Part shown: positions 34,343 through 64,000 of the stretch, one piece after another | Numbering within the stretch: position 1 is the stretch's first letter | How the letters are laid out: each line of letters opens with the position of its first letter | Source: Deroplatys truncata | Taxonomy: Eukaryota > Arthropoda > Insecta > Mantodea > Mantidae | Reading direction: 5' to 3' | Assembly (NCBI GenBank): GCA_030765065.1 | Contig: CM060984.1 | Span: 506,001-570,000, forward strand | DNA length: 64,000 nt | The notes under the pieces: generated by a model | What the model was told of the DNA's origin: nothing | The model's database searches: none | The model's input: only the letters and a program-made list of their open reading frames with translations | Translations under genes and position numbers: made by a program

Positions 34343-34343
<1 letters not shown>

Positions 34344-34360
34344 ACACTGAGTCACACACT

Positions 34361-34364
<4 letters not shown>

Positions 34365-34406
<42 letters not shown>
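34365..34406 (+). repeat. (CA)n microsatellite in LINE 3' region
   Basis: About 21 CA units lie between the A36 tract and the end of the reverse-transcriptase frame; on the element strand this is (TG)n. Together with the A36 run it produces a spurious plus-strand frame rich in Lys and Thr-His. Confidence 0.95.
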
Positions 34407-34408
<2 letters not shown>

Positions 34409-34449
34409 CGCGCACAAGTACTCAAGCACCACATATGTTTAAAGAAAAA

Positions 34450-38151: not shown

Positions 38152-41100
38152 AATACTTCCACTACTTACTATAGGCATTTTTTAGACTAGGAGTGTCTCA
38201 AAGTGAGAATTTCCGGTGAAATAATGGTATCGTATTTTTGAGTGGAATGCCATACTTCGCCTATTTATTATAGGCATTTTTTAGACTCGGAGTATCCCAA
38301 AGTGTGAATTTCCGGTGAAATATTGGTATCTTATTTTTGAGTGGAATGCAATACTTCGCCTACTTACTATATGCATTTTTTAGACTAGGAGTGTCTGAAA
38401 GTGTGAATTTCAGGTGAAATATTGGTATCATATTTTTCAGTGGAATGCAATACCTCGCCCACTTACTATAGGCAATTCTTAGACTCGGAGTGTCCCAAGG
38501 TGTGAATTTCCTGTGAAATATTGGTATCGTATTTTTGAGTGGAATGCAATACTTCGCCTACTTACTATAGGCATTTTTTAAACTAGGAGTTTCTGAAAGT
38601 GTGATTTTCCGGTGAAATATAGGTATCGTGATTTTGAGTGGAATGCAATGCTTCGCCTACTTACTATAGGCATTTTTTAGACTCCGAGTGTCCCAAAGAG
38701 TGAATTTCCGGTGAATTATTGGTATCGTATTTTTGAGTGGAATGCAATACTTCCTCTACTTACTATAGGCATTTTTTAGACTAGGAGTGTCTCAAAGTGT
38801 GAATTTCCGGTGAAATATTGGTATCGTGTTTTTGAGTGGAATACAATCCCACCTATATGCATTTTTTAGACTAGGAGTGTCTCAAAGTGTGAATTTCCGG
38901 TGAAAATTGTATCGTATTTTCGAGTGGAATGCAATGCTTCGCCTACTTACTATAGGCATTTTTTAGACTAGGAGTTTTTCGAATGTGTGAATTTCCGTTG
39001 AAATATTGGTATTGTATTTTTGAGTGGACTGCAATACTTTCTTTACTTACTATAGGCATTTTTTTAGACTAAGAGTGTCTCAAAGTGTGAATTTCCGGTG
39101 AAATATTGGTATCCTATTTTTGAGTGGAATGCAATAATTCCTCTACTTACTTTAGGCATTTTTTAGACTCGGAATGTCCCAACCTGTGAATTTCCGGTGA
39201 ATAATTGGTATCGTATTTTTGAGTGGAATGCAATACTTCGCCTACTTACTATAGGCATTTTTTAGACTAGGAGTGTCTGAAAGTGCGAATTTCCGGTGAA
39301 ATATTGGTATATTTTTGAGTGGAATGCAATCCTTCGACCACTTACTATAGGTAATTTTTAGACTCGGAGTGTCTGAAAGTGTGAATTTCCGGTGAAATAT
39401 TGGTATCGTATTTCTAAGTGGAATGCAATACTTCCTATAGGCATTTTTTTAGACTAGGAGTGTCTCAAACTGTGCATTTCTGGTGAAATATTGGTATCGT
39501 ATTTCTGAGTGGAATGCTAACTTCCTGTATTCACTATACGCATTTTTTAGACTAGGGTGTCTCAAACTGTGAATTTCCGGAAAAATATTGGTATCGTATT
39601 TTTGAGTGGAATGCAATATTTCGTCTACTTATTATAGGCATTTTTTAGACTCGGAGTTTCTCAAACTGTGAATTTCCGGTGAAATATTGGTATCGTATTT
39701 TTGAGTGGAATGCAATACTTCCTATACTTACTATAGGCATTTTTTAGACTCGGAGTGTCCCAGTGTGAATTTTTGGTGAAATATTGGTATCGCATTTTTT
39801 AATGGAATGCAATACTTCGCCTACTTACTATAGGCATTTTTTAGACTCCGAGTGTCCCAAAGTGTGAATTTCCGGTGAAATATTGGTATCGTATTTTTGA
39901 GCGGAATGCAATACTTGTACTCACTATAGGCATTACTTAGACTCGGACTGTCTCAAAGTATGAATCTCCGGTGAAATATTGGAATCGTATTTTTGAGTGT
40001 AATGCAATAGGTACATCCTATACTTACTATCGGCATTTTTTAGACTCTTGAGTGTCCCAAAGTGTTAATTTCCGGTTAAATAATGGTATGGTATTTTTGA
40101 GTGGAATGCAATTCTTCGCCTACTTACTATAGGCATTTTTTAGACTCGGAGTGTCCCAAATTGTGAATTTCCGGTGAAATATTGGTATTTTATTTTTGAG
40201 TGGAATGCAATATTTCGCCTACTTACTATAGGCATTTTTTAGCCTAGGAGTGTCTCAAAGTGTGCATTTCGGGTGAAATATTGGTATCGTATTTTTGAGT
40301 GGAATGCAATACTTCCTCTATTTACTATAGGCATTTTTTAAACTAGGAGTGTCTCAAAGTGTTCATTTCTGGTGAAATATTGGTATCCTATTTTTGAGTG
40401 GAATGCAATGCTTCCTGTACTTACTATAGGCATTTTTTAGACTAGGAGTGTCTCAAAGTGTGAATTTCCGGTGAAATATTGGTATCGTATTTTTGAGTGG
40501 AATGCCATACTTCGACTACTTACTATATGCATTTTTTAGACTCGGAGTGTCTCAAAGTGTGAATTTCCGGGAAATATTGGTATCGTATTTTTGAGTGGAA
40601 TGCAATAATTCCTCTACTTACTTTAGGCATTTTTTAGACTCGGAATGTCCCAAACTGTGAATTTCCGGTGAATAATTGGTATCGTATTTTTAAGTGGAAT
40701 GCAATACCTCGCCTACTTACTATAGGCATTTTTTAGACAAGGAGTGTCTGAAAGTGTGAATTTCCGGTGAAATATTGGTATATTTTTGAGTGGAATGCAA
40801 TCCTTCGACCACTTACTATAGGTAATTTTTAGACTAGGAGTGTCTGAAAGTGTGAATTTCGGGTGAAATATTGGTATCGTGTTTTTGAGTGGAATACAAT
40901 ACTTCCTATAGGCATTTTTTTAGACTAGGAGTGTCTCAAAGTGTGAATTTCCGGTGAAATCTTGGTATCGTATTTTTGAGTGATATGCAATACTTCTTAT
41001 ACTTACTATAGGTATTTTTTTAGACAGGGAGTATCCCAAATTGTGATTTTCCGGTGAAATATTGTTATCGTATTTTTCAGTGGAATGCAAACTTTCTGTG

Positions 41101-44100
41101 TTTACTATACGCATTTTTTAGATTAGGAGTGTCTCAAAGTGAGAATTTCAGATGAAATATTCGTATTATATTTTTGAGTGGAATGCAATACTTCGCCTAC
41201 TTACTATATGCATTTTTTAGACTCGGAGTGTCTGAAAGTATGAAGTTCAGGTAAATTACTGGTATCGTATTTTTGAGTGCAATGCAATAGTTCGTCACCT
41301 TACTATAGGCAATTTTTTAGACTCGGAGTGTCCCAAAGTGTGAATTTCCGGAGAAATATTGATATCGTATTTTTGAGTGTAATGCAATTCTTCGCCTACT
41401 TAGAATAGGCATTTTTTAGACTCGGAGTGTCCCAAATTGTGCATTTCCGATGAAATATTGGTATCGTATTTTTGAGTGGAATGCAATACTTCGCCTACTT
41501 ACTATAGGCATTTTTTAGACTAGGAGTGTCTAGAAGTGTGAATTTCCGGTGAAATATTGGTATCGTATTTTTGAGTGGAATGCAATACTTCTTATACTTG
41601 CTATAGGCATGTTTTTAGACTAGGAGTGTCTCAAAGTGTGAATTTCCGGTGAAATATTGGTATCTTATTTTTGAGTGGAATTCAATACTTCCACTACTTA
41701 CTATAGGCATTTTTTAGACTAGGAGTGTCTCAAAGTGAGAATTTCCGGTGAAATAATGGTATCGTATTTTTGAGTGGAATGCCATACTTCGCCTATTTAT
41801 TATAGGCATTTTTTAGACTCGGAGTATCCCAAAGTGTGAATTTCCGGTGAAATATTGGTATCTTATTTTTGAGTGGAATGCAATACTTCGCCTACTTACT
41901 ATATGCATTTTTTAGACTAGGAGTGTCTGAAAGTGTGAATTTCAGGTGAAATATTGGTATCATATTTTTCAGTGGAATGCAATACCTCGCCCACTTACTA
42001 TAGGCAATTCTTAGACTCGGAGTGTCCCAAGGTGTGAATTTCCTGTGAAATATTGGTATCGTATTTTTGAGTGGAATGCAATAATTCGCCTACTTACTAT
42101 AGGCATTTTTTAAACTAGGAGTTTCTGAAAGTGTGATTTTCCGGTGAAATATAGGTATCGTGATTTTGAGTGGAATGCAATGCTTCGCCTACTTACTATA
42201 GGCATTTTTTAGACTCCGAGTGTCCCAAAGAGTGAATTTCCGGTGAATTATTGGTATCGTATTTTTGAGTGGAATGCAATACTTCCTCTACTTACTATAG
42301 GCATTTTTTAGACTAGGAGTGTCTCAAAGTGTGAATTTCCGGTGAAATATTGGTATCGTGTTTTTGAGTGGAATACAATCCCACCTATATGCATTTTTTA
42401 GACTAGGAGTGTCTCAAAGTGTGAATTTCCGGTGAAAATTGTATCGTATTTTCGAGTGGAATGCAATGCTTCGCCTACTTACTATAGGCATTTTTTAGGC
42501 TAGGAGTTTTTCGAATGTGTGAATTTCCGTTGAAATATTGGTATTGTATTTTTGAGTGGACTGCAATATTTTCTTTACTTAGTATAGGCATTTTTTTAGA
42601 CTAAGAGTGTCTCAAAGTGTGAATTTCCGGTGAAATATTGGTATCCTATTTTTGAGTGGAATGCAATAATTCCTCTACTTACTTTAGGCATTTTTTAGAC
42701 TCGGAATGTCCCAACCTGTGAATTTCCGGTGAATAATTGGTATCGTATTTTTGAGTGGAATGCAATACTTCGCCTACTTACTATAGGCATTTTTTAGACT
42801 AGGAGTGTCTGAAAGTGCGAATTTCCGGTGAAATATTGGTATATTTTTGAGTGGAATGCAATCCTTCGAACACTTACTATAGGTAATTTTTAGACTCGGA
42901 GTGTCTGAAAGTGTGAATTTCCGGTGAAATATTGGTATCGTATTTCTAAGTGGAATGCAATACTTCCTATAGGCATTTTTTTAGACTAGGAGTGTCTCAA
43001 ACTGTGCATTTCTGGTGAAATATTGGTATCGTATTTCTGAGTGGAATGCTAACTTCCTGTATTCACTATACGCATTTTTAGACTAGGGTGTCTCAAACTG
43101 TGAATTTCCGGAAAAATATTGGTATCGTATTTTTGAGTGGAATGCAATATTTCGTCTACTTATTATAGGCATTTTTTAGACTCGGAGTTTCTCAAACTGT
43201 GAATTTCCGGTGAAATATTGGTATCGTATTTTTGAGTGGAATGCAATACTTCCTATACTTACTATAGGCATTTTTTAGACTCGGAGTGTCCCAGTGTGAA
43301 TTTTTGGTGAAATATTGGTATCGCATTTTTTAATGGAATGCAATACTTCGCCTACTTACTATAGGCATTTTTTAGACTCCGAGTGTCCCAAAGTGTGAAT
43401 TTCCGGTGAAATATTGGTATCGTATTTTTGAGCGGAATGCAATACTTGTACTCACTATAGGCATTTCTTAGACTCGGACTGTCTCAAAGTATGAATCTCC
43501 GGTGAAATATTGGAATCGTATTTTTGAGTGTAATGCAATAGGTACATCCTATACTTACTATCGGCATTTTTTAGACTCTTGAGTGTCCCAAAGTGTTAAT
43601 TTCCGGTTAAATAATGGTATGGTATTTTTGAGTGGAATGCAATTCCTCGCCTACTTACTATAGGCATTTTTTAGACTCGGAGTGTCCCAAATTGTGAATT
43701 TCCGGTGAAATATTGGTATTTTATTTTTGAGTGGAATGCAATATTTCGCCTACTTACTATAGGCATTTTTTAGCCTAGGAGTGTCTCAAAGTGTGCATTT
43801 CGGGTGAAATATTGGTATCGTATTTTTGAGTGGAATGCAATACTTCCTCTATTTACTATAGGCATTTTTTAAACTAGGAGTGTCTCAAAGTGTTCATTTC
43901 TGGTGAAATATTGGTATCGTATTTTTGAGTGGAATGCAATACTTCCTCTATTTATATACGCATTTTTTAGACTAGGAGTGTCCCAAAGTGTGAATTTCCG
44001 GTGAATAGTTGGTATCGTATTTTTGAGTGGAATGCAATACATCGCCTACTTACTATAGGCATTTTTTAGACTGGGAGTGTCCCAAAGTGTGAATATCCGG

Positions 44101-44457
44101 TGAAATATTGGTGTCGTATTTTTGAGTGGAATGCAAGTCTTCGCCTACTTAGAATAGGCATTGTTTAGACTCGGAGTGTCCGAAATTGTGCATTTCCGAT
44201 GAAATATTGGTATCGTATTTTTTAGTGAAATGCTATACTTCGCCTACTTACTATAGGCATTTTTTAGACTAGGAGTGTCTGAAAGTGTGAATTTCCGGTG
44301 AAATATTGGTATCGTATTTTTGAGTGGAATGCAATGCTTCGCCTACTTACTATAGTCATTTTTTTTAGACTAGGAGTGTCTCAAAGTGTGAATTTCCGGT
44401 GAAATATTGGTATCTAATTTTTGAGTGGAATGCAATACTTCCACTACTTACTATAGG
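38152..44457 (+). repeat. Segmental duplication of 23422-29727
   Basis: Offset 14730 bp holds across about 6.3 kb. Anchors are GGTACATCC at 25280/40010 and at 28811/43541, and TTTAGTGAAATGCTATAC at 29491/44221. Both copies contain a 3531-bp internal repeat of the 36-mer. The right limit is where 29727 goes to a TAGGTAATTTTT variant and 44457 goes to TAGGCATTTTTT. Confidence 0.83.
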
Positions 44458-47400
44458 CATTTTTTAGACTAGGAGTGTCTCAAAGTGAGAATTTTCGGTG
44501 AAATATTGGTATCGTATTTTTGAATGGAATGCCATACTTCGCCTATTTACTATAGGCATTTTTTAGACTCGGAGTATCCCAAAGTGTGAATTTCCGGTGA
44601 AATATTGGTATCGTAATTTTTAGTGGAATGCAATACTTCGCCTACTTACTATATGCATTTTTTGGACTAGGAGTTTCTGAAAGTGTGATTTTCCGGTGAA
44701 ATATTGGTATCGTGATTTTGAGTGGATTGCAATGCTTCGCCTACTTACTATAGGCATTTTTTAGACTCGGAGTGTCCCAAAGTGTGAATTTCCGGTGAAA
44801 TATTGGTATCGTATTTTTGAGTGGAATGCAATGCTTCGCCTACTTACTATAGTCATTTTTTTTAGACTAGGAGTGTCTCAATGTGTGAATTTCCGGTGAA
44901 ATATTGGTATCGTATTTTTGAGTGGAATGCAATACTTCCTATACTTACTATAGGCATGTTTTTAGACTAGGAGAGTCTCAAAGTGTGAATTTCCGGTGAA
45001 ATATTGGTATCTAATTTTTGAGTGGAATGCAATACTTCCACTACTTTCTATAGGCATTTTTTAGACTAGGAGTGTCTCAAAGTGAGAATTTTCGGTGAAA
45101 TATTGGTATCGTATTTTTGAATGGAATGCCATACTTCGCCTATTTACTATAGGCATTTTTTAGACTCGGAGTATCCCAAAGTGTGAATTTCCGGTGAAAT
45201 ATTGGTATCGTAATTTTTAGTGGAATGCAATACTTCGCCTACTTACTATATGCATTTTTTGGACTAGGAGTTTCTGAAAGTGTGATTTTCCGGTGAAATA
45301 TTGGTATCGTGATTTTGAGTGGAATGCAATGCTTCGCCTACTTACTATAGGCATTTTTTAGACTCGGAGTGTCCCAAAGTGTGAATTTCCGGTGAAATAT
45401 TGGTATCGTATTTTTGAGTGGAATGCAATACTTCCTATACTTACTATAGGCATTTTTTTGACTCAGAGTGTCTCAAAGTGTGAATTTCCGGTGAAATATT
45501 GGTATCTTATTTTTGAGTGGAATGCAATACTTCCTCTACTTTCTATAGGCAGTTTTTAGACTAGGAGTGTCTCAAAGTGTGAATTTCCGGTGAAATATTG
45601 GTATCGTGTTTTTGAGTGGAATACAATACCACCTATAGGCATTTTTTAGACTAGGAGTGTCTCAAAGTGTGAATTTCCGGTGAAAAATGTATCGTATTTT
45701 TGAGTGGAATGCAATGCTTCGCGTACTTACTATAGGCATTTTTTAGACTAGGAGTTTCTGAATTTTTGAATTTCCGGTGAAATATTGGTATTGTATTTTT
45801 GAGTGGAATGCAATACCTCGTCCACTTACTATAGGCATTTTTTAGACTAAGAGTGTCCCAAAGTGTGAATTTACGGTGAAATATTGGTATCGTGTTTTTC
45901 AGTGGAATACAATACTTCCTATAGGCATTTTTTTAGACTAGGAGTGTCTCAAAATGTGAATTTCCGGTGAAATATTGGTATCGTATTTTTAAATGGAATG
46001 CAATACTTCCTATACTTACTATAGGCATTGTTTTAGACTAAGAGTGTCTCAAAGTGTGAATTTCCGGTGAAATATTGGTATCCTATTTTTGAAATGAATG
46101 CAATGCTTCCTGTACTTACTATAGGCATTTTTAAGACTAGGAGTGTCTCAAGGTGTGAATTTCCGGTGAAATATTGGTATCGTATTTTTGAGTGGAATGC
46201 CATACTTCGACTACTTACTATATGCATTTTTTAGACTCGGAGTGTCTCAAAGTGTGAATTTCCGGGAAATATTGGTATCGTATTTTTGAGTGGAATGCAA
46301 TAATTCCTCTACTTACTTTAGGCATTTTTTAGACTCGGAATGTCCCAACCTGTGAATTTCCGGTGAATAATTGGTATCGTATTTTTGAGTGGAATGCAAT
46401 ACTTCGCCTACTTACTATAGGCATTTTTTAGACTAGGAGTGTCTGAAAGTGCGAATTTCCGGTGAAATATTGGTATATTTTTGAGTGGAATGCAATCCTT
46501 CGACCACTTACTATAGGTAATTTTTAGACTCGGAGTGTCTGAAAGTGTGAATTTCCGGTGAAATATTGGTATCGTATTTCTAAGTGGAATGCAATACTTC
46601 CTATAGGCATTTTTTTAGACTAGGAGTGTCTCAAACTGTGCATTTCTGGTGAAATATTGGTATCGTATTTCTGAGTGGAATGCTAACTTCCTGTATTCAC
46701 TATACGCATTTTTTAGACTAGGGTGTCTCAAACTGTGAATTTCCGGAAAAATATTGGTATCGTATTTTTGAGTGGAATGCAATATTTCGTCTACTTATTA
46801 TAGGCATTTTTTAGACTCGGAGTTTCTCAAACTGTGAATTTCCGGTGAAATATTGGTATCGTATTTTTGAGTGGAATGCAATACTTCCTATACTTACTAT
46901 AGGCATTTTTTAGACTCGGAGTGTCCCAGTGTGAATTTTTGGTGAAATATTGGTATCGCATTTTTTAATGGAATGCAATACTTCGCCTACTTACTATAGG
47001 CATTTTTTAGACTCCGAGTGTCCCAAAGTGTGAATTTCCGGTGAAATATTGGTATCGTATTTTTGAGCGGAATGCAATACTTGTACTCACTATAGGCATT
47101 TCTTAGACTCGGACTGTCTCAAAGTATGAATCTCCGGTGAAATATTGGAATCGTATTTTTGAGTGTAATGCAATAGGTACATCCTATACTTACTATCGGC
47201 ATTTTTTAGACTCTTGAGTGTCCCAAAGTGTTAATTTCCGGTTAAATAATGGTATGGTATTTTTGAGTGGAATGCAATTCCTCGCCTACTTACTATAGGC
47301 ATTTTTTAGACTCGGAGTGTCCCAAATTGTGAATTTCCGGTGAAATATTGGTATTTTATTTTTGAGTGGAATGCAATATTTCGCCTACTTACTATAGGCA

Positions 47401-50400
47401 TTTTTTAGCCTAGGAGTGTCTCAAAGTGTGCATTTCGGGTGAAATATTGGTATCGTATTTTTGAGTGGAATGCAATACTTCCTCTATTTACTATAGGCAC
47501 TTTTTAAACTAGGAGTGTCTCAAAGTGTTCATTTCTGGTGAAATATTGGTATCGTATTTTTGAGTGGAATGCAATACTTCCTCTATTTATATACGCATTT
47601 TTTAGACTAGGAGTGTCCCAAAGTGTGAATTTCCGGTGAATAGTTGGTATCGTATTTTTGAGTGGAATGCAATACATCGCCTACTTACTATAGGCATTTT
47701 TTAGACTGGGAGTGTCCCAAAGTGTGAATATCCGGTGAAATATTGGTGTCGTATTTTTGAGTGGAATGCAAGTCTTCGCCTACTTAGAATAGGCATTGTT
47801 TAGACTCGGAGTGTCCGAAATTGTGCATTTCCGATGAAATATTGGTATCGTATTTTTTAGTGAAATGCTATACTTCGCCTACTTACTATAGGCATTTTTT
47901 AGACTAGGAGTGTCTGAAAGTGTGAATTTCCGGTGAAATATTGGTATCGTATTTTTGAGTGGAATGCAATGCTTCGCCTACTTACTATAGTCATTTTTTT
48001 TAGACTAGGAGTGTCTCAAAGTGTGAATTTCCGGTGAAATATTGGTATCTAATTTTTGAGTGGAATGCAATACTTCCACTACTTACTATAGGCATTTTTT
48101 AGACTAGGAGTGTCTCAAAGTGAGAATTTTCGGTGAAATATTGGTATCGTATTTTTGAATGGAATGCCATACTTCGCCTATTTACTATAGGCATTTTTTA
48201 GACTCGGAGTATCCCAAAGTGTGAATTTCCGGTGAAATATTGGTATCGTAATTTTTAGTGGAATGCAATACTTCGCCTACTTACTATATGCATTTTTTGG
48301 ACTAGGAGTTTCTGAAAGTGTGATTTTCCGGTGAAATATTGGTATCGTGATTTTGAGTGGAATGCAATGCTTCGCCTACTTACTATAGGCATTTTTTAGA
48401 CTCGGAGTGTCCCAAAGTGTGAATTTCCGGTGAAATATTGGTATCGTATTTTTGAGTGGAATGCAATGCTTCACCTACTTACTATAGTCATTTTTTTTAG
48501 ACTAGGAGTGTCTCAATGTGTGAATTTCCGGTGAAATATTGGTATCTAATTTTTGAGTGGAATGCAATACTTCCACTACTTTCTATAGGCATTTTTTAGA
48601 CTAGGAGTGTCTCAAAGTGAGAATTTTCGGTGAAATATTGGTATCGTATTTTTGAATGGAATGCCATACTTCGCCTATTTACTATAGGCATTTTTTAGAC
48701 TCGGAGTATCCCAAAGTGTGAATTTCCGGTGAAATATTGGTATCGTAATTTTTAGTGGAATGCAATACTTCGCCTACTTACTATATGCATTTTTTGGACT
48801 AGGAGTTTCTGAAAGTGTGATTTTCCGGTGAAATATTGGTATCGTGATTTTGAGTGGAATGCAATGCTTCGCCTACTTACTATAGGCATTTTTTAGACTC
48901 GGAGTGTCCCAAAGTGTGAATTTCCGGTGAAATATTGGTATCGTATTTTTGAGTGGAATGCAATACTTCCTATACTTACTATAGGCATTTTTTTGACTCA
49001 GAGTGTCTCAAAGTGTGAATTTCCGGTGAAATATTGGTATCTTATTTTTGAGTGGAATGCAATACTTCCTCTACTTTCTATAGGCAGTTTTTAGACTAGG
49101 AGTGTCTCAAAGTGTGAATTTCCGGTGAAATATTGGTATCGTGTTTTTGAGTGGAATACAATACCACCTATAGGCATTTTTTAGACTAGGAGTGTCTCAA
49201 AGTGTGAATTTCCGGTGAAAAATGTATCGTATTTTTGAGTGGAATGCAATGCTTCGCGTACTTACTATAGGCATTTTTTAGACTAGGAGTTTCTGAATTT
49301 TTGAATTTCCGGTGAAATATTGGTATTGTATTTTTGAGTGGAATGCAATACCTCGTCCACTTACTATAGGCATTTTTTAGACTAAGACTGTCCCAAAGTG
49401 TGAATTTACGGTGAAATATTGGTATCGTGTTTTTGAGTGGAATACAATACTTCCTATAGGCATTTTTTTAGACTAGGAGTGTCTCAAAATGTGAATTTCC
49501 GGTGAAATATTGGTATCGTATTTTTAAATGGAATGCAATACTTCCTATACTTACTATAGGCATTGTTTTAGACTAAGAGTGTCTCAAAGTGTGAATTTCC
49601 GGTGAAATATTGGTATCCTATTTTTGAAATGAATGCAATGCTTCCTGTACTTACTATAGGCATTTTTAAGACTAGGAGTGTCTCAAGGTGTGAATTTCCG
49701 GTGAAATATTGGTATCGTATTTTTGAGTGGAATGCCATACTTCGACTACTTACTATATGCATTTTTTAGACTCGGAGTGTCTCAAAGTGTGAATTTCCGG
49801 GAAATATTGGTATCGTATTTTTGAGTGGAATGCAATAATTCCTCTACTTACTTTAGGCATTTTTTAGACTCGGAATGTCCCAACCTGTGAATTTCCGGTG
49901 AATAATTGGTATCGTATTTTTGAGTGGAATGCAATACTTCGCCTACTTACTATAGGCATTTTTTAGACTAGGAGTGTCTGAAAGTGCGAATTTCCGGTGA
50001 AATATTGGTATATTTTTGAGTGGAATGCAATCCTTCGACCACTTACTATAGGTAATTTTTAGACTCGGAGTGTCTGAAAGTGTGAATTTCCGGTGAAATA
50101 TTGGTATCGTATTTCTAAGTGGAATGCAATACTTCCTATAGGCATTTTTTTAGACTAGGAGTGTCTCAAACTGTGCATTTCTGGTGAAATATTGGTATCG
50201 TATTTCTGAGTGGAATGCTAACTTCCTGTATTCACTATACGCATTTTTTAGACTAGGGTGTCTCAAACTGTGAATTTCCGGAAAAATATTGGTATCGTAT
50301 TTTTGAGTGGAATGCAATATTTCGTCTACTTATTATAGGCATTTTTTAGACTCGGAGTTTCTCAAACTGTGAATTTCCGGTGAAATATTGGTATCGTATT

Positions 50401-51840
50401 TTTGAGTGGAATGCAATACTTCCTATACTTACTATAGGCATTTTTTAGACTCGGAGTGTCCCAGTGTGAATTTTCGGTGAAATATTGGTATCGCATTTTT
50501 TAATGGAATGCAATACTTCGCCTACTTACTATAGGCATTTTTTAGACTCCGAGTGTCCCAAAGTGTGAATTTCCGGTGAAATATTGGTATCGTATTTTTG
50601 AGCGGAATGCAATACTTGTACTCACTATAGGCATTTCTTAGACTCGGACTGTCTCAAAGTATGAATCTCCGGTGAAATATTGGAATCGTATTTTTGAGTG
50701 TAATGCAATAGGTACATCCTATACTTACTATCGGCATTTTTTAGACTCTTGAGTGTCCCAAAGTGTTAATTTCCGGTTAAATAATCGTATGGTATTTTTG
50801 AGTGGAATGCAATTCCTCGCCTACTTACTATAGGCATTTTTTAGACTCGGAGTGTCCCAAATTGTGAATTTCCGGTGAAATATTGGTATTTTATTTTTGA
50901 GTGGAATGCAATATTTCGCCTACTTACTATAGGCATTTTTTAGCCTAGGAGTGTCTCAAAGTGTGCATTTCGGGTGAAATATTGGTATCGTATTTTTGAG
51001 TGGAATGCAATACTTCCTCTATTTACTATAGGCATTTTTTAAACTAGGAGTGTCTCAAAGTGTTCATTTCTGGTGAAATATTGGTATCGTATTTTTGAGT
51101 GGAATGCAATACTTCCTCTATTTATATACGCATTTTTTAGACTAGGAGTGTCCCAAAGTGTGAATTTCCGGTGAATAGTTGGTATCGTATTTTTGAGTGG
51201 AATGCAATACATCGCCTACTTACTATAGGCATTTTTTAGACTGGGAGTGTCCCAAAGTGTGAATATCCGGTGAAATATTGGTGTCGTATTTTTGAGTGGA
51301 ATGCAAGTCTTCGCCTACTTAGAATAGGCATTGTTTAGACTCGGAGTGTCCGAAATTGTGCATTTCCGATGAAATATTGGTATCGTATTTTTTAGTGAAA
51401 TGCTATACTTCGCCTACTTACTATAGGCATTTTTTAGACTAGGAGTGTCTGAAAGTGTGAATTTCCGGTGAAATATTGGTATCGTATTTTTGAGTGGAAT
51501 GCAATGCTTCGCCTACTTACTATAGTCATTTTTTTGGACTAGGAGTGTCTCAAAGTGTGAATTTCCGGTGAAATATTGGTATCTAATTTTTGAGTGGAAT
51601 GCAATACTTCCACTACTTACTATAGGCATTTTTTAGACTAGGAGTGTCTCAAAGTGAGAATTTTCGGTGAAATATTGGTATCGTATTTTTGAATGGAATG
51701 CCATACTTCGCCTATTTACTATAGGCATTTTTTAGACTCGGAGTATCCCAAAGTGTGAATTTCCGGTGAAATATTGGTATCGTAATTTTTAGTGGAATGC
51801 AATACTTCGCCTACTTACTATATGCATTTTTTGGACTAGG
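44457..51840 (+). repeat. C-family higher-order repeats (~3.53-3.63 kb)
   Basis: Two successive units are offset by 3535 bp on the right (46033/49568 and 47176/50711). On the left the offset is 3635 bp, because one extra monomer (CATGTTTTTAGAC variant, about 44940-45040) is present only in the first. The family is marked by TAGTCATTTTTTTT variants (near 44355, 44850, 47990 and 48487) and by GTATCGTAATTTTTAGTGG. It shares its m30-m36-like stretch with the 36-mer family, so it is a relative and not an unrelated satellite. Confidence 0.78.
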
Positions 51841-53508
51841 AGTGCCTCAAAGTGTGAATTTCCGGTTAAAATTGTATCGTATTTTTGAGTGGAATGCAAT
51901 GCTTTGCCTACTTACTATAGGCATTTTTTAGACTAGGAGTTTCTTAATGTGTGAATTTCCGGTAAATATTGGTATTGTATTTTTGAGTGGAATCCAATAC
52001 TTCGTCCACTTACTATAGGCATTTTTTAGACTAAGAGTGTCCCAAAGTGTGAATTTCCGGTGAAATATTGGTATCCTATTTTTGAGTGGAATGAAATACT
52101 TCCTGTACTTACTATAGGCATTTTTTAGACTAGGAGTGTCTCAAAGTGTGAATTTCCGGTGAAATATTGGTATCGTATTTTTGAGTGGAATGAAATACTT
52201 CCTATAGGCATTGTTTTAGACTAGGGGTGTCTCAAAATGTGAATTTCCGGTGAAATATTGTTATCGTACTTTTAAATGGAATGCATACTTCCTATACTTA
52301 CTATAGGCATTTTTTTAGACTAGGAGTGTCTCAAAGTGTGAATTTCCGGTGAAACATTGGTATCGTATTTTTGAGTGGAATGCCATACTTCGACTACTTA
52401 CTATATGCATTTTTTAGACTCGGAGTGTCTCAAAGTGTGAATTTCCGGGAAATATTGGTATCGTATTTTTGAGTGGAATGCAATAATTCCTCTACTTACT
52501 TTAGGCATTTTTTAGACTCGGAATGTCCCAAACTGTGAATTTCCGGTGAATGTTTGGTATCGTATTTCTGAGTGGAATGCAATACTTCGCCTACTTACTA
52601 TAGGCATTTTTTAGACAAGGAGTGTCTGAAAGTGTGAATTTCCGGTGAAATATTGGTATATTTTTGAGTGGAATGCAATCCTTCGACCACTTACTATAGG
52701 TAATTTTTAGGCTCAGAATATCCCAAAGTGTGAATTTCCGGTGAAATATTGGTATCGTATTTTGGTGTGGAATACAATACTTCGTCCACTTACTATAGGC
52801 ATTTTTTAGACTAGGAGTGTCTGAAAGTGTGAATTTCGGGTGAAATATTGGTATCGTGTTTTTGAGTGGAATACAATACTTCCTATAGGCATTTTTTTAG
52901 ACTAAGAGTGTCTCAAAGTGTGAATTTCCGGTGAAATCTTGGTATCGTATTTTTGAGTGGAATGCAATACTTCCTATACTTACTATAGGTATTTTTTTAG
53001 ACAGGGAGTGTCCCAAATTGTGATTTTCCGGTGAAATATTGTTATCGTATTTTTCAGTGGAATGCAAACTTTCTGTGTTTGCTATACGCATTTTTTAGAT
53101 TAGGAGTGTCTCAAAGTGAGAATTTCAGATGAAATATTCGTATTATATTTTTGAGTGGAATGCAATACTTCGCCTACTTACTATATGCATTTTTTAGACT
53201 CGGAGTGTCTGAAAGTATGAAGTTCAGGTAAATTACTGGTATCGTATTTTTGAGTGCAATGCAATACTTAGTCAACTTACTATAGGCAATTTTTTAGACT
53301 CGGAGTGTCCCAAAGTGTGAATTTCCGGAGAAATATTGATATCGTATTTTTGAGTGTAATGCAATTCTTCGCCTACTTAGAATAGGCATTTTTTAGACTC
53401 GGAGTGTCCCAAATTGTGCATTTCCGATGAAATATTGGTATCGTATTTTTGAGTGGAATGCAATACTTCGCCTACTTACTATAGGCATTTTTTACTTTCT
53501 CTACTACG

Positions 53509-53604
53509 TATAGTAAGTAGGGGAAGTATTGCATTCCACCCAAAAATTCGATACCGAGATTTCACCGGAAATACATGTTTTGAGACCTCCTGAATCCAAA
53601 AAAA
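53509..53604 (-). repeat. Inverted, diverged satellite monomer inside the element, copy 1
   Basis: Read on the minus strand, this segment aligns with nearly the whole satellite monomer. Shared plus-strand blocks, matching the reverse complement of the array, are TATAGTAAGTAGG, GAAGTATTGCATTCCAC, CAAAAAT, CGATACC, ATTTCACCGGAAAT, TTTGAGAC and CTCCT. By eye about 85-90 percent of about 95 positions match, with one or two small gaps. The orientation is opposite to that of the array, so this is not simple read-through of the flanking monomers. Confidence 0.88.
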
Positions 53605-53623
53605 GAATTTTTGGAAACATGTC

Positions 53624-53675
53624 CGTGTGTGTGTCTGTGTGTGTGTGTGTCTGTGTGTGTTATTGTGTGTGTGTG
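53624..53675 (+). repeat. TG-rich tract, copy 1
   Basis: An imperfect (TG)n tract is interrupted by CTG and TATTG. It lies between the inverted monomer and the GAACAGCATAACTC block of the first 647-bp unit. Confidence 0.9.
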
Positions 53676-54155
53676 AACAGCATAACTCAAAAACGAACAG
53701 TCGGATAAGCACCAAACTTGGTATTTAGGTTCAGTATCTTCCAGAGATGCGACACGAAGGTTTTCAAGAAAATCCCCCCACCCCAAACTACCCTTTACAT
53801 GGAAGATTTTTCGAAAATTTTAATTTTCTCAAAAATGGCTCTAACGATTTTGATGAAAATATCATATGTTTAAGATAATGTCATGGGAAATGAAATGTAT
53901 ATCTCGAATTTTCTGGGAATGTCTCCAAAAGTATTCTTTATTGTGAACAACTTTTGCATAACTGGTAAACCATAAGAGATACACAAAATGTTACCACACA
54001 AAAAGTGTAGATCGCGTTAAAATACACAACTTATGTCATATACATTTCTTTTGTTGAGTGAACCGTTTTGGAGATATTGCTTGTTATTTCCTTAAATTTT
54101 CCAATACTTATACTTTTTCTCAAATTCGTTATTCATTTTTACTTTCTCTACTACG

Positions 54156-54251
54156 TATAGTAAGTAGGGGAAGTATTGCATTCCACCCAAAAATTCGATA
54201 CCGAGATTTCACCGGAAATACATGTTTTGAGACCTCCTGAATCCAAAAAAA
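54156..54251 (-). repeat. Inverted, diverged satellite monomer inside the element, copy 2
   Basis: This is the equivalent of 53509-53604 in the second 647-bp unit, 647 bp downstream. Over this segment it is almost identical to copy 1. The same differences from the array consensus (GGGG for GGCG, CACCC for CACTC, CGAGATTT for CAATATTT) are in both, so the segment was in the element before its internal duplication. Confidence 0.88.
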
Positions 54252-54271
54252 GCATTTTTGAAAACATGTCC

Positions 54272-54326
54272 GTGTGTGTGTCTGTGTGTGTGTGTGTGTG
54301 TGTGTCTGTGTGTGTGTGTGTCTGTG
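54272..54326 (+). repeat. TG-rich tract, copy 2
   Basis: This imperfect (TG)n tract with CTG interruptions is in the same position as in copy 1 but differs in length and pattern, as expected for a slippage-prone sequence. Confidence 0.9.
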
Positions 54327-54792
54327 AACAGCATAACTCAAAAACGAACAGTTGGATAAGCACCAAACTTGGTATTTAGGCTCAGTATCTTCCAGAGATG
54401 CGACTCGAAGGTTTTCAAGAAAATCCCCCCACCCCAGACTACCCTTTACATGGAAGATTTTTCGAAAATTTTAATTTTCTCAAAAATGGCTCTAACGATT
54501 TTGATTAAAATATCACACGTTTAAGATATTTTTATGACAAATAAAATGTATATCTTGAATTTCCTGGGAATGTCTCCAAAAGTATAGTTCATTGTGAACG
54601 ACTTTTGCATAACAGGTAAACCATAAGAGATAGACAAAATTTTACTACACAAAAAATGTAGATCGCGTTAAAATACACAACTTATGTCATATACATTTCT
54701 TTTGTTGAGTGAACCGTTTTCGAGATATTGCTTGTTATTTCCTTAAATTTTACAATACTTATACTTTTTCTCAAATTCGTTATTCATATTTT

Positions 54793-54983
54793 TATGTCCT
54801 GGACATGCAAATAGAATGGAATGCGCCACATAGCAACCAGCGTTAAAATATTTGACTATCGCTTAAAACCTAGCATATTCCCCTTGCATCTACAAGAAAA
54901 TTACAAATAAGATTGACATCTCGATATCTCGATTAACATGAAGCATATGGAGAATAAGCGTTTGTAAAATTAGATTGTACAAG
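54793..54983. other. Unique A+T-rich tail of the element
   Basis: This single-copy stretch lies between the second 647-bp unit and the 3' subterminal inverted repeat. No open frame, RNA gene or satellite-like block was recognised. It contains GACATCTCGATATCTCGA, a short local palindrome-rich segment. It is probably part of the transposable element core. Confidence 0.55.
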
Positions 54984-55013
54984 AGTAGAGAAAGTCATGT
55001 GAGTGTAACACAT
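54984..55013 (+). other. 3' subterminal inverted repeat and terminal hairpin of the element
   Basis: AGTAGAGAAAGT (54984-54995) is the exact reverse complement of the first 12 bases of the element and of the first 12 bases of its second unit (54141-54152). It is followed by ATGTG-AGTGTAA-CACAT (54997-55013), a perfect 5-bp stem. The order, inverted repeat then hairpin then end, is the arrangement described for Helentron 3' ends. Confidence 0.7.
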
Positions 55014-55282
55014 CAGATTTTTAGACTAGGAGTGTCTGGAAGTGTGAATTTCCGGTGAAATATTGGTATCGTATTTTTGACTGGAATGCAACACTTCCTA
55101 TAGGCATTTTTTAGACTAGGAGTGTCTCAAAGTGTGAATTTCCGGTGAAATATTGGTATCATATTTTTGAGTGTCATGCAATACTTCGTGTACTTACTAT
55201 AGGCAATTTTTAAACTAGGAGTGTCTGAAAGTGAGAATTTCCGGTGAAATATTGGTATCGTATTTATGAGTGGAATGCAACA

Positions 55283-55650
55283 CTTCCTATAGGCATTTTT
55301 TAGACTAGGAGTGTCTCAAAGTGTGAATTTCCGGTGAAATATTGGTATCGTATTTCTGAGTGGAATGCAAATTTCTTGTATTTACTATACGCATTTTTTA
55401 GACTAGGAGTGTCTCAAACTGTGAATTTCCGGTGAAATATTGGTATCGTATTTTTGAGTGGAATGCAACACTTCCTATAGGCATTTTTTAGACTAGGAGT
55501 GTCTCAAAGTGTGAATTTCCGGTGAAATATTGGTATCGTATTTCTGAGTGGAATGCAAACTTCTTGTATTTACTATACGCATTTTTTAGACTAGGAGTGT
55601 CTCAAACTGTGAATTTCCGGTGAAATATTGGTATCGTATTTTTGAGTGGA
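55283..55650 (+). repeat. Local 188-bp dimer duplication of satellite monomers
   Basis: A short monomer (CTTCCTATAGGC variant) and a full monomer (TATTTCTGAGTGG, CTTGTATTTACTATACGC) occur together twice in succession, anchored at 55283 and 55471. It is a recent two-monomer duplication close to the element boundary. Confidence 0.75.
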
Positions 55651-57461
55651 ATGCAATACTTCCTATACTTACTATAGGCATTTTTTAGACTCGGAGTGTC
55701 CCAGTGTGAATTTTTGGTGAAATATTGGTATCGCATTTTTTAATGGAATGCAATACTTCGCCTACTAACTATAGGCATTTTTTAGACTCCGAGTGTCCCA
55801 AAGTGTGAATTTCCGGTGAAATATTGGTATCGTATTTTTTAGCGGAATGCAATACTTCTACTCACTATAGGCATTTTTTAGACTCGGAGTGTCTCAAAGT
55901 ATGAATTTCCGGTGAAATATTGGAATCGTATTTTTGAGTGTAATGCAATAGGTACATCTTATACTTACTATCGGCATTTTTTAGACTCTGAGTGTCCCAA
56001 AGTGTTAATTTCCGGTTAAATAATGGTATGGTATTTTCGAGTGGAATGCAATTCTTCGCCTACTTACTATAGGCATTTTTTAGACTCGGAGTGTCCCAAA
56101 TTGTGAATTTCCGGTGAAATATTGGTATCTTATTTTTGAGTGGAATGCAATATTTCGCCTACTTACTATAGGCATTTTTAGACTGGGAGTGTCTCAAAGT
56201 GTGCATTTCGGGTGAAATATTGGTATCGTATTTTTGAGTGGAATGCAATACTTCCTCTATTTACTATACGCATTTTTTAGCCTAGGAGTGTCTCAAAGTG
56301 TGAATGTCCGGTGAAATATTGGTATCGTATTTTAGAGTGGAATGAATACATCCTCTACTTACTATAGGCATTTTTTAGACTAGGAGTGTCTCAAAATGTT
56401 CATTTCTGGTGAAATATTGGTATCGTATTTTTTAGTGGAATGCAATACTTCCTCTATTTATATACGCATTTTTTAGACTAGGAGTGTCCCAAAGTGTGAA
56501 TTTCCGGTGAATAGTTGGTATCGTATTTTTGAGTGGAATGCAATACCTAGCCTACTAACTATAGGCATTTTTTAGACTGGGAGTGTCCCAAAGTGTGAAT
56601 ACCCGGTTAATATTGGTATCGTATTTTTGAGTGGAATGCAATAATTCGTCAACTTACTATAGGCAATTTTTTAGACTTGGAGTGTCCCAAAGTGTGAATT
56701 TCCTGTGAAATATTGATATCGTATTTTTGAGTGGAATGCAATTCTTCGCCTACTTAGAATAGGCATTATTTAGACTCGGCGTGTCCCAAATTGTGCATTT
56801 CCGATGAAATATTGGTATCGTATTTTTGAGTGGAATGCAATACTTCGCCTACTTACTATAGGCATTTTTTAGACTAGGAGTGTCTGAAAGTGTGAATTTC
56901 CGGTGAAATATTGGTATCGTATTTTTGAGTGGAATGCAATGCTTCGCCTACTTACTATAGTCATTTTTTTAGACTAGGAGTGTCTCAAAGTGTGAATTTC
57001 CGGTGAAATATTGGTGACGTATTTTTGAGTGGAATGCAATACTTCCTATACTTACTATGGGCATTTTTTAGACTAGGAGTGTCTCAAAGTGAGAATTTCC
57101 GGTGAAAATTGGTATCGTATTTTTGAGTGGAATGCCATACTTCGCCTATTTACTATAGGCATTTTTTAGACTCGGAGTATCCCAAAGTGTGAATTTCCGG
57201 TGAAATATTGGTATCGTAATTTTTAGTGGAATGCAATAATTCGCCTACTTACTATAGGCATTTTTTAAACTAGGATATTCTGAAAGTGTGATTTTCCGGT
57301 GAAATATAGGTATCGTGATTTTGAGTGGAATGCAATGCTTCGCCTACTGACTATAGGCATTTTTTAGACTCGGAGTGTCCCAAAGAGTGAATTTCCGGTG
57401 AAATATTGGTACCGTATTTTTGAGTGGAATGCAATATTTCGCCCACTTACTATAGGCATTC

Positions 57462-57950
57462 TTTTGACTAAGAGTGTCTCAAAGTGTGAATTTCCGGTGA
57501 AATATTGGTATCTTATTTTTGAGTGGAATGCAATGCTTCCTCTAATTACTATAAGCATTTTTTAGACTAGGAGTGTCTCAAAGTGTGAATTTCCGGTGAA
57601 AATTGTATCGTATTTTTGAGTGGAATGCAATGCTTCGCGTACTTACTATAGGCATTTTTTAGACTAGGAGTTTCTGAATATGTGAATTTCCGTTGAAATA
57701 TTGGTATCGTATTTTTGAGTGGAATGCAATACTTCCTATACTTACTATAGGCATTTTTTTGACTAAGAGTGTCTCAAAGTGTGAATTTCCGGTGAAATAT
57801 TGGTATCTTATTTTTGAGTGGAATGCAATACTTCCTCTAATTACTATAGGCATTTTTTAGACTAGGGGTGTCTCAAAGTGTGAATTTCCGGTGAAAATTG
57901 TATCGTAAATTTTAGTGGAATGCAATGCTTCGCGTACTTACTATAGGCAT
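57462..57950 (+). repeat. Local 295-bp trimer duplication of satellite monomers
   Basis: TTTTGACTAAGAGTGTCTC followed by the TCTTATTTTTGAG and CTTCCTCTAATTAC variants occurs at 57462 and again at 57757, a spacing of 295 bp, i.e. three monomers. The TCTAATTAC variant is found only here in the window as far as I saw. Confidence 0.7.
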
Positions 57951-60900
57951 TTTTTAGACTAGGAGTTTCTGAATATGTGAATTTCCGTTGAAATATTGGT
58001 ATTGTATTTTTGAGTGGACTGCAATACTTCCTATACTTACTATAGGCATTTTTTTAGACTAAGAGTGTCTCAATGTGTGAATTTCCGGTGAAATATTGGT
58101 ATCCTATTCTTGAGTGGAATGCAATGCTTCCTGTACTTACTATAGGCATTTTTTATACTAGGAGTGACCCAACCTGTGAATTTCCGGTGAATAATTGGTA
58201 TCGTATTTTTGAGTGGAATGCAATACTTCGCCTACTTACTATAGGCATTTTTTAGACTAGGAGTGTCTGAAAGTGTGAATTTCCGGTGAAATATTGGTAT
58301 CGTATTTCTAAGTGGAATGCAATACTTCCTATAGGCATTTTTTTTGACTAGGAGTGTCTCAAAGTGTGAATTTCCGGACAAATATTGGTATCGTATTTGA
58401 GTGGAATGCAATACTTCCTATACTTACTATAGGCATTCTTTAGACTCTGAGTGTCTCAAAGTGTGCATTTCTGGTGAAATATTGGCATCGTATTTCTGAG
58501 TGGAATGCAAACTTCCTGTATTTACTATACGCATTTTATAGACTAGGGTGTCTCAAACTGTGAATTTCCGGTAAAATATTGGTATCGTATTTTTGAGTGG
58601 AATGCAATATTTCGTCTACTTATTATAGGCATTTTTTAGACTCGGAGTGTCTCAAACTGTGAATTTCCGGTGAAATATTGGTATCGTATTTTTGAGTGGA
58701 ATGCAATACTTCCTATACTTACTATAGGCATTTTTTAGACTCGGAGTGTCCCAGTGTGAATTTTTGGTGAAATATTGGTATCGCATTTTTTAATGGAATG
58801 CAATACTTCGCCTACTTACTATAGGCATTTTTTAGACTCCGAGTGTCCCAAAGTGTGAATTTCCGGTGAAATATTGGTATCGTATTTTTGAGCGGAATGC
58901 AATACTTCTACTCACTATAGGCATTTTTTAGACTCGGAGTGTCTCAAAGTATGAATTTCCGGTGAAATATTGGAATCGTATTTTTGAGTGTAATGCAATA
59001 GCTACATCCTATACTTACTATCGGAATTTTTTAGACTCTGAGTGTCCCAAAGTGTTAATTTCCGGTTAAATAATGGTATGGTAGTTTTGAGTGGAATGCA
59101 ATTCTTCGCCTACTTACTATAGGCATTTTTTAGACTCGGAGGGTCCCAATTTGTGAATTTCCGGTGAAATATTGGTATCTTATTTTTGAGTGGAATGCAA
59201 TATTTCGCCTACTTACTATAGGCAATTTTTTAGACTAGGAGTGTCTCAAAATGTGCATTTCGGGTGACATATTGGTATCGTATTTTTGAGTGGAATGCAA
59301 TACTTCCTCTATTTATATACGCATTTTTTAGACTAGGAGTGTCCCAAAGTGTGAATTTCCGGTGAATAGTTGGTATCGTATTTTTGAGTGGAATGCAATA
59401 CTTCGCCTACTTACTATACGCATTTTTTAGACTGGGAGTGTCCCAAAGTGTGAATATCTGGTGAAATATTGGTATCGTATTTTTGAGTGGAATGCAATAC
59501 TTCGTCAAATTACTATAGGCAATTTTTTAGACTTGGAGTGTCCCAAAGTGTGAATTTCCGGTGAAATGTTGATATCGTATTTTTGAGTGGAATGCAAGTT
59601 TTCGCCTACTTAGAATAGGCATTATTTAGACTCGGAGTGTCCGAAATTGTGCATTTCCGATGAAATATTGGTATCGTATTTTTTAGTGGAATGCTATACT
59701 TCGCCTACTTACTATAGGCATTTTTTAGACTAGGAGTGTCTGAAAGTGTGAAATTCCGGTGAAATATTGGTATCGTATTTTTGAGTGGAATGCATGCTTC
59801 GCCTACTTACTATAGGCAATTTTTAGACTCGGAGTATCCCAAAGTGTGAACTTCCAGTGAAATATTGGTATCGTGTTTTTGAGTGGAATGCAATACTTCC
59901 TATACTTACTATAGGCATGTTTTTAGACTAGGAGTGTCTCAAAGTGTGAATTTCCGGTGAAATATTGGTATCTAATTTTTGAGTGGAATGCAATACTTCC
60001 ACTACTTACTATAGGCATTTTTTAGACTAGGAGTGTCTCAAAGTGAGAATTTTCGGTGAAATATTGGTATCGTATTTTTGAGTGGAATGCCATACTTCGC
60101 CTATTTACTATAGGCGTTTTTTAGACTCGGAGTATCCCAAAGTGTGAATTTCCGGTGAAATATTGGTATCGTAATTTTTAGTGGAATGCAATACTTCCTA
60201 TACTTACTATATGCATTTTTTGAACTAGGAGTTTCTGAAAGTGTGATTTTCCGGTGAAATATTGGTATCGTGATTTTGAGTGGAATGCAATGCTTCGCCT
60301 ACTTACTATAGGCATTTTTTAGACTCGGAGTGTCCCAAAGAGTGAATTTCCGGTGAAATATTGGTATCGTATTTTTGAGTGGAATGCAATACTTCCTATA
60401 CTTACTATAGGCATTTTTTTGACTAAGAGTGTCTCAAAGTGTGAATTTCCGGTGAAATATTGGTATCTTATTTTTGAGTGGAATGCAATACTTCCTCTAC
60501 TTTCTATAGGCAGTTTTTAGACTAGGAGTGTCTCAAAGTGTGAATTTCCGGTGAAATATTGGTATCGTGTTTTTGAGAGGAATACAATACCACCTATAGG
60601 CATTTTTTAGACTAGGAGTGTCCCAAAGTGTGCATTTCCGGTGAAAATTGTATCGTATTTTTGAGTGGAATGCAATGCTTCGCCTACTTACTATAGGCAT
60701 TTTTTAGACTAGGAGTTTCTGAATGTGTGAATTTCCGTTGAAATATTGGTATTGTATTCTTGAGTGGACTGCAATACTTCCTATACTTACTATAGGCATT
60801 TTTTTAGACTAAGAGTGTCTCAAAGTGTGAATTTACGGTGAAATATTGGTATCCTATTTTTGAGTGGAATGCAATGCTTCCTGTACTTACTATAGGCATT

Positions 60901-63900
60901 TTTTAGACTAGGAGTGTCTCAAAATGTGAATTTCCGGTGAAATATTGGTATCGTATTTTTGAGTGGAATGCCATACTTCGACTACTTACTATATGCATTT
61001 TTTAGACTCGGAGAGTCTCAAAGTGTGAATTTCCGGGAAATATTGGTATCGTATTTTTGAGTGGAATGCAATAATTCCTCTACTTACTTTAGGCATTTTT
61101 TAACTCGGAATGTCCCAACCTGTGAATTTCCGGTGAATAATTGGTATCGTATTTTTGAGTGGAATGCAATACTTCGCCTACTTACTATAGGCATTTTTTA
61201 GACTAGGAGTGTCTGAAAGTGTGAATTTCCGGTGAAATATTGGTATCGTATTTCTAAGTGCAATGCAATACTTCCTATAGGCATTTTTTTAGACTAGGAG
61301 TGTCTCAAAGTGTGCATTTCTGGTGAAATATTGGTATCGTATTTCTGAGTGGAATGCAAAATTCCTGTATTTTCTATACGCATTTTTTAGACTAGGGTGT
61401 CTCAAACTGTGAATTTCCGGTAAAATATTGGTATCGTATTTTTGAGTTGAATGCAATATTTCGTCTACTTATTATAGGCATTTTTTAGACTCGGAATGTC
61501 TCAAACTGTGAATTTCCGGTGAAATATTGGTATCGTATTTTTGAGTGGAATGCAATACTTCCTATACTTACTATAGGCATTTTTTAGACTGGGAGTGTCC
61601 CAAAGTGTGAATATCCGGTGAAATAATGGTGTCGTATTTTTGAGTGGAATGCAAGTCTTCGCCTACTTAGAATAGGCATTGTTTAGACTCGGAGTGTCCG
61701 AAATTGTGCATTTCCGATGAAATATTGGTATCGTATTTTTTAGTGAAATGCTATACTTCGCCTACTTACTATAGGCATTTTATAGACTAGGAGTGTCTGA
61801 AAGTGTGAATTTCCGGTGAAATATTGGTATCGTATTTTTGAGTGGAATGCAATGCTTCGCCTACTTACTATAGTCATTTTTTTTAGACTAGGAGTGTCTC
61901 AAAGTGTGAATTTCCGGTGAAATATTGGTATCTAATTTTTGAGTGGAATGCAATACTTCCACTACTTACTATAGGCATTTTTTAGACTAGGAGTGTCTCA
62001 AAGTGAGAATTTTCAGTGAAATATTGGTATCGTAATTTTTAGTGGAATGCAATACTTCGCCTACTTACTATATGCATTTTTTGGACTAGGAGTTTCTGAA
62101 AGTGTGATTTTCCGGTGAAATATTGGTATCGTGATTTTGAGTGGAATGCAATGCTTCGCCTACTTACTATAGGCATTTTTTAGACTCGGAGTGTCCCAAA
62201 GTGTGAATTTCCGGTGAAATATTGGTATCGTATTTTTGAGTGGAATGCAATGCTTCGCCTACTTACTATAGTCATTTTTTTAGACTAGGAGTGTCTCAAT
62301 GTGTGAATTTCCAGTGAAATATTGGTATCGTATTTTTGAGTGGAATGCAATACTTCCTATACTTACTATAGGCATGTTTTTAGGCTAGGAGAGTCTCAAA
62401 GTGTGAATTTCCGGTGAAATATTGGTATCTAATTTTTGAGTGGAATGCAATACTTCCACTACTTTCTATAGGCATTTTTTAGACTAGGAGTGTCTCAAAG
62501 TGAGAATTTTCGGTGAAATATTGGTATCGTATTTTTGAATGGAATGCCATACTTCGCCTATTTACTATAGGCATTTTTTAGACTCGGAGTATCCCAAAGT
62601 GTGAATTTCCGGTGAAATATTGGTATCGTAATTTTTAGTGGAATGCAATACTTCGCCTACTTACTATATGCATTTTTTGGACTAGGAGTTTCTGAAAGTG
62701 TGATTTTCCGGTGAAATATTGGTATCGTGATTTTGAGTGGAATGCAATGCTTCGCCTACTTACTATAGGCATTTTTTAGACTCGGAGTGTCCCAAAGTGT
62801 GAATTTCCGGTGAAATATTGGTATCGTATTTTTGAGTGGAATGCAATACTTCCTATACTTACTATAGGCATTTTTTTGACTCAGAGTGTCTCAAAGTGTG
62901 AATTTCCGGTGAAATATTGGTATCTTATTTTTGAGTGGAATGCAATACTTCCTCTACTTTCTATAGGCAGTTTTTAGACTAGGAGTGTCTCAAAGTGTGA
63001 ATTTCCGGTGAAATATTGGTATCGTGTTTTTGAGTGGAATACAATACCACCTATAGGCATTTTTTAGACTAGGAGTGTCTCAAAGTGTGAATTTCCGGTG
63101 AAAAATGTATCGTATTTTTGAGTGGAATGCAATGCTTCGCGTACTTACTATAGGCATTTTTTAGACTAGGAGTTTCTGAATGTGTGAATTTCCGGTGAAA
63201 TATTGGTATTGTATTTTTGAGTGGAATGCAATACCTCGTCCACTTACTATAGGCATTTTTTAGACTAAGAGTGTCCCAAAGTGTGAATTTACGTTGAAAT
63301 ATTGGTATCGTGTTTTTGAGTGGAATACAATACTTCCTATAGGCATTTTTTTTAGACTAGGAGTGTCTCAAAATGTGAATTTCCGGTGAAATATTGGTAT
63401 CGTATTTTTAAATGGAATGCAATACTTCCTATACTTACTATAGGCATTGTTTTAGACTAAGAGTGTCTCAAAGTGTGAATTTCCGGTGAAATATTGGTAT
63501 CCTATTTTTGAAATGAATGCAATGCTTCCTGTACTTACTATAGGCATTTTTAAGACTAGGAGTGTCTCAAGGTGTGAATTTCCGGTGAAATATTGGTATC
63601 GTATTTTTGAGTGGAATGCCATACTTCGACTACTTACTATATGCATTTTTTAGACTCGGAGTGTCTCAAAGTGTGAATTTCCGGGAAATATTGGTATCGT
63701 ATTTTTGAGTGGAATGCAATAATTCCTCTACTTACTTTAGGCATTTTTTAGACTCGGAATGTCCCAAACTGTGAATTTCCGGTGAATAATTGGTATCGTA
63801 TTTTTGAGTGGAATGCAATACTTCGCCTACTTACTATAGGCATTTTTTAGACAAGGAGTGTCTGAAAGTGTGAATTTCCGGTGAAATATTGGTATTGTAT

Positions 63901-64000
63901 TTTGGAGTGGAATACAATACTTCGTCCACTTACTATAGGCATTTTTTAGACTAGGAGTGTCTGAAAGTGTGAATTTCGGGTGAAATATTGGTATCGTGTT

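Follow-up and report, generated by a model that had tools for sequence, protein, structure and literature searches.

The window analysed here, a stretch of 64,000 nucleotides (G000:C10:506001-570000), comes from a genome of 4.29 Gb in 818 contigs and, contig C10 being 263,225,584 bases long, is situated close to a contig end. It is occupied throughout by an array of a 99-bp satellite that is broken by two insertions, one of which is a transposable element carrying two short segments related to the satellite itself (Table 1). A profile search returned 608 monomer matches of at least 80 bp in the window, in which the aligned bases of the array monomers have a median identity of 93.9% to the consensus (minimum 85.7%). 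Pairwise distances between array monomers have a median of 11.5% and a 99th percentile of 20%, and in a sample of 150 of the 606 monomers the distance to the nearest neighbour was at most 6.6%. The orientation is nearly uniform, as nhmmer placed 610 satellite matches on the plus strand and 2 on the minus strand, and mapping the array consensus on the window gave minus-strand matches only at 53509-53603 and 54156-54253. Multi-kb direct duplications run through the array (5081-13987 / 16123-25029 and 6517-12213 / 37383-43079, among others) and extend up to 8.9 kb at 99.7% identity, and among those listed for the window the 25 longest measure 1.8-8.9 kb with identities of 98.1-99.8%. A rearrangement of the satellite with a 47-bp period is found in three copies (3787-3945, 30029-30187 and 32680-32838), the first and last of which occupy corresponding places in one 3.25-kb duplication, and the register between monomers is weak (best lag 36, 0.914 vs a mean of 0.883).

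Table 1. Features of the window and of related loci; positions are those of the window unless a contig is given.
Feature	Position	Strand	Basis and remarks
99-bp satellite array	1..64000	+	TRF, consensus mapping, profile; broken by two insertions, 34114-36887 and 53494-55017
Non-autonomous Helentron-like (HINE/DINE-1 type) element in the array	53494..55017	+	Two tandem 5' units, one 3' end; last base ambiguous (55016 or 55017)
5' subTIR ACTTTCTCTACT, unit 1	53494..53505	+	12/12 inverted match to 54984-54995
Satellite-homologous segment, unit 1 (element 5' terminal domain)	53509..53606	-	Mapping, nhmmer, alignment
IR arm AGTAGGGGAAGT, unit 1	53516..53527	+	Inside the satellite-homologous segment; 10/12 identity
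(GT)n microsatellite, unit 1	53625..53675	+	TRF
5' subTIR, unit 2 (ACTTTCTCTACT again)	54141..54152	+	12/12 inverted match
Satellite-homologous segment, unit 2	54156..54253	-	Mapping, nhmmer
IR arm, unit 2	54163..54174	+	Alignment
(GT)n microsatellite, unit 2	54272..54326	+	TRF
3' subTIR AGTAGAGAAAGT	54984..54995	+	Inverted match to 5' subTIR
3' hairpin ATGTG-AGTGTAA-CACAT, 5-bp stem	54997..55013	+	Sequence; weak by energy alone
Dispersed loci with an adjoining second partial unit	G000 C9:227592116, C1:270548114, C7:254873262, C6:114705400, C13:44106733		

The anatomy of the element is that of a HINE/DINE-1-like transposon. As described by Thomas et al. (PMC4067079) and for Cg_HINE (PMC7492417), such elements carry a subTIR, an IR, a microsatellite, a 3' subTIR and a palindrome, and they sit in a TT or T-rich target with no clear target duplication. 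Their subTIRs measure 11-15 bp at both ends, and in the same accounts an IR complementary to the 5' subTIR lies 1-22 bp behind it in DINE-1 and in the oyster Cg_HINE but not in the mite HINEs (PMC4067079, PMC7492417). The window element has the subTIRs, the IR behind the 5' subTIR, the T-rich target and the microsatellite. Exact matches to its subTIR are confined in the window to the three element sites, and the IR arm, 10 nt behind the 5' subTIR, is pairable with it at 12/12 positions (two G.T wobbles). Folded as DNA, the 5' end of the element reaches -5.7 kcal/mol with a z of -3.31, and 1/200 shuffles is equally good; the 3' hairpin has a z of -1.09, with 33/200 shuffles equally good, and is followed by CAG at the element end. 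The 3' subTIR lies 21-22 bp from that end, vs about 38-60 bp in the mite HINEs (PMC4067079), a range that describes the mites and is not a rule for all families. The longest stop-to-stop frame in the element is 113 aa, and coding capacity is absent, as is typical of the HINE/DINE-1 class.

The insertion site is a T-run. The flanks read GGCATTTTTT on the left and ATTTTTAGAC on the right, with 6 T and 5 T respectively, and the uninterrupted consensus monomer has GGCATTTTTTAGAC, which represents the empty site; there is no clear target duplication, as a duplication of the T-run would be indistinguishable from Ts belonging to the element. An earlier note on this DNA had compared the case with Helitron-linked satellites; the element is a rolling-circle transposon of Helentron/HINE-like type. 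A canonical Helitron is rejected on the ends (ACTTTC...CACATCAG) and on the insertion in a T-run. Canonical Helitrons have 5' TC and 3' CTRR ends. They insert between A and T, according to PMC4067079. Known RNA families produced no hit reaching gathering scores in 53000-55500, and exact-pattern relatives were found neither for the element 5' end in a viral collection nor for the array pattern in a genome collection, these collections being viral or prokaryotic; one exact-pattern match to a 17-mer in the viral collection was taken as chance.

Consensus mapping covers the element with satellite in two reverse segments only. Aligned with the doubled array consensus, unit 1 scores 104 bits in reverse orientation (E 5.6e-27, 85.4% identity over 96 columns), compared with at most 27.4 bits when the letters of the unit were shuffled 200 times. 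In nhmmer the two segments have 84.8% and 86.4% identity to the array consensus, and a model search found both known segments again. Each unit thus contains the roughly 96-bp, reverse-orientation relative of the monomer that had been noticed before. The homology begins at TATAGTAAGTAG in the loop of the 5' hairpin, covers the IR arm and continues for ∼98 bp to AAAAAAAGC. The segment is single in each unit, lies directly behind the 5' subTIR and is not a central tandem repeat. The longest block unchanged between array consensus and element is the 17-bp GTGGAATGCAATACTTC, and a 14-bp near-palindrome at monomer columns 41-54 (ATTTCCGGTGAAAT) is likewise identical in the two.

The two units are identical over their first 112 bp (53494-53605 vs 54141-54252, 0/112 differences), which comprise the subTIR and the segment, and differ at the very next base. 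The differences of the two segments from the array are therefore common to both, as also claimed earlier. Beyond the first 112 bp, 34/534 compared positions differ (about 6%), and beyond the microsatellite 27/465 do (Fisher p 0.0046 vs the identical first 112 bp). With ∼6% divergence past this point, the internal duplication previously proposed is not a recent one. The identity of the first 112 bp is as expected of a functional 5' end, and the 5' domain looks constrained; alternatively, recent conversion or homogenisation could have produced it.

The IR arm of the element has its counterpart in the satellite monomer. When 12-mers on both strands of the array consensus are compared with the subTIR, the best match (10/12) falls at columns 86-97, which are homologous to the IR, and the next best reaches 8/12. 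Leaving out the 116/606 monomers that are gapped at these columns, identity to the subTIR among the 490 ungapped monomers is 6 of 12 in 1, 7 in 48, 8 in 128, 9 in 169, 10 in 113 and 11 in 31, so that 144/490 match at 10 or 11 of 12 positions, and 22/490 are pairable with the subTIR at all 12. Shuffled 42-base stretches contain a match of at least 10/12 in 0.18% of cases. Sites with at most one mismatch to the subTIR number 35 in the window vs 0.47 expected; they are the 3 exact element sites and 32 array sites, all on the plus strand, and the latter are not independent because many are duplicated copies of one another, nor is the array subTIR match independent of the segment-monomer homology itself.

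An IR arm is described only beside a subTIR, and its presence in the monomer is our main reason for preferring a direction from element to satellite, which we regard as probable, over capture. If a HINE ancestor had instead taken up one satellite monomer beside its 5' subTIR, with the family spreading afterwards, this monomer would have needed to supply a subTIR-complementary IR arm at the right distance, although a captured monomer could serve as IR arm by chance or selection. The uptake of host tandem repeats by Helitrons and Helentrons is on record (PMC12628747, PMC8268682), and several properties of the segment are in favour of capture: it is almost exactly one monomer, 34-39% of array monomers show its states at the variable columns 21, 91 and 92, and a class of 70 array monomers, with a mean distance of 0.204, is somewhat less distant from the element than most other classes. 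However, the nearest array monomer is 17% away from the element segments (median 22-23%), a gap that is itself within the range of array variation given the pairwise 99th percentile above. In an ML tree of 74 array representatives and one element segment, the element has a branch of 0.187 and is in no supported array group, the tree being built from window sequences, unrooted, and with low deep supports (35, 59 and 9). The earlier note had asked whether the element monomers nest in an array subfamily, and in the window, with this unrooted tree and its low deep supports, such nesting is not shown. Considering also the dispersed copies described below, in which the segment is spanned in all 31 scored, we consider capture unlikely.

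A genome search gave 1191 candidates, of which 40 were scored; the query had the segment at its start, and the scored set is skewed to long matches. Nine of the scored copies lie at C10:418634-665537 (97-100% identity) and 31 elsewhere on C1 to C15 (90-97%). In the search alignments the segment is spanned in 31/31 of these dispersed copies, 29 of which align from the first query position onwards and two from positions 5 and 7, and because the query starts with the segment, dispersed copies without it would be under-ranked. A lack of the segment in dispersed copies, which had been raised as a question, was thus not seen in the 31 scored, under a query biased to the segment. A second partial unit adjoins the first in 5/31 scored dispersed loci, like in the window copy. 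The identity of the scored dispersed copies to the window unit (90-97%) vs the ∼15% distance of the segment from the array consensus would also suit a model in which an older Helentron 5' end passed the domain on to the array as well as to the element family, with the satellite arising from a sister family; the same is true of the array monomers that match the subTIR at 11/12 when the arm of the element itself matches at 10/12. We give this common source even less weight than capture.

The copies within the array have a history of their own. Nine were found and eight, including the window copy, were compared at their junctions, which are identical on the left and on the right; pairwise identity over 3.6 kb is 95.3-100%. 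As all eight have one insertion site, a single insertion has multiplied with the array. The 1.8-8.9 kb duplications in the window fit such a spread of one insertion with the array, which is probably continuous across 418 to 666 kb of C10. With its place in the array and its copies of the segment, the window copy could be thought of as the seed of the array, but it runs opposite to the monomers, the closest of which differ from its segments by 17%. Its flanks are the halves of an ordinary monomer, the consensus monomer represents the empty site, and eight copies have the one site; we reject this origin as extremely improbable.

We put the probability at roughly 70% that the 99-bp satellite descends from a HINE 5' terminal domain, and that the family later inserted in the array and multiplied with it. 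The source would be the stretch of ∼98 bp, IR arm included, that immediately follows the 5' subTIR in a dispersed non-autonomous Helentron (HINE) family, and this domain would have been tandemised in a relative of the present element. We infer that tandemisation may have proceeded by aberrant rolling-circle replication reiterating the 5' ends, followed by unequal exchange, and that the repeat then expanded into an array close to one C10 end, all before the element inserted. Into a T-run of the array already present, a two-unit copy of the family then inserted once, in antiparallel orientation to the monomers, and multi-kb duplication within the array multiplied the inserted copy. Amplification of a TE segment to a satellite, the origin put forward in the earlier note, is supported in its direction by the IR arm in the monomer, by the absence of the element from any supported array group and by the 31/31 scored copies spanning the segment; the segment is a 5' terminal domain and no central tandem repeat like that of DINE-TR1, and the window copy is not the source. 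With odds that we judge only a little better than even, the full course of events is that the 5' hairpin domain, and not central repeats, became a large satellite near a chromosome end, that its monomers keep the subTIR-pairing arm, and that the family re-invaded its own satellite and hitch-hikes on array duplications.

The satellite is a variant of a known route, by which satellites arise from Helentron repeats; Helitron-linked satellites in general are the subject of a review (PMC9659126). The DINE-TR1 satellites of Drosophila are reported to derive from central tandem repeats of ∼150 bp (PMC9957191 citing Dias et al. 2015; PMC9957191 also covers dmgsat-7). The likeness lies in a satellite that is homologous to part of a non-autonomous Helentron, whereas in place of central repeats the part involved here is a 5' terminal domain, present once per unit, with an IR arm. 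In the Pacific oyster, related monomers are described both in the Cg_HINE elements and as the classical Cg170/HindIII satellite (PMC7492417, PMC8268682). Cg_HINE agrees with the window element in subTIR, IR, microsatellite and 3' subTIR, its palindrome has a possible counterpart in the weak 3' hairpin, and it likewise has monomers in element and satellite, but in the oyster the repeats form a central module between flanks, and here the monomer belongs to the left flank. Helitrons in tandem, with multiple 5' ends but a single 3' end (Xiong et al. 2016 as summarised in PMC12628747), resemble the window copy, in which two adjoining 5' units share one 3' end, and by analogy the two-unit form and the 5/31 dispersed loci would correspond to the multiple-5'-end model given there. 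In contrast to that system, in which truncated elements are repeated, only ∼98 bp are repeated here, without the subTIR. Both capture and 5'-biased rolling-circle amplification are described in the same review (PMC12628747). A limited search of the open-licence literature turned up no satellite reported to be a HINE 5' IR domain.

For the known Helentron satellites, as presented in PMC9957191 and PMC7492417, central tandem repeats are the source and which came first is hard to say. If the monomer is a 5' hairpin domain, then a structural part that is meaningful only in a transposon reveals the direction. One and the same genome contains the array together with dispersed elements and tandem 5' forms, so that the stages by which the satellite arose could be put in sequence.

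The other insertion in the array, at 34114-36887, is non-LTR-retrotransposon-like. A minus-strand frame at 34450-36903 has 817 residues from stop to stop and matches RVT_1 (E 8.7e-39), with LINE-1 ORF2 as its best match among solved structures (E 2.2e-27). Beyond the stop-codon end of this frame TRF identified, in the plus-strand reading, an A-run at 34307-34342 and a (CA)n repeat at 34353-34406.
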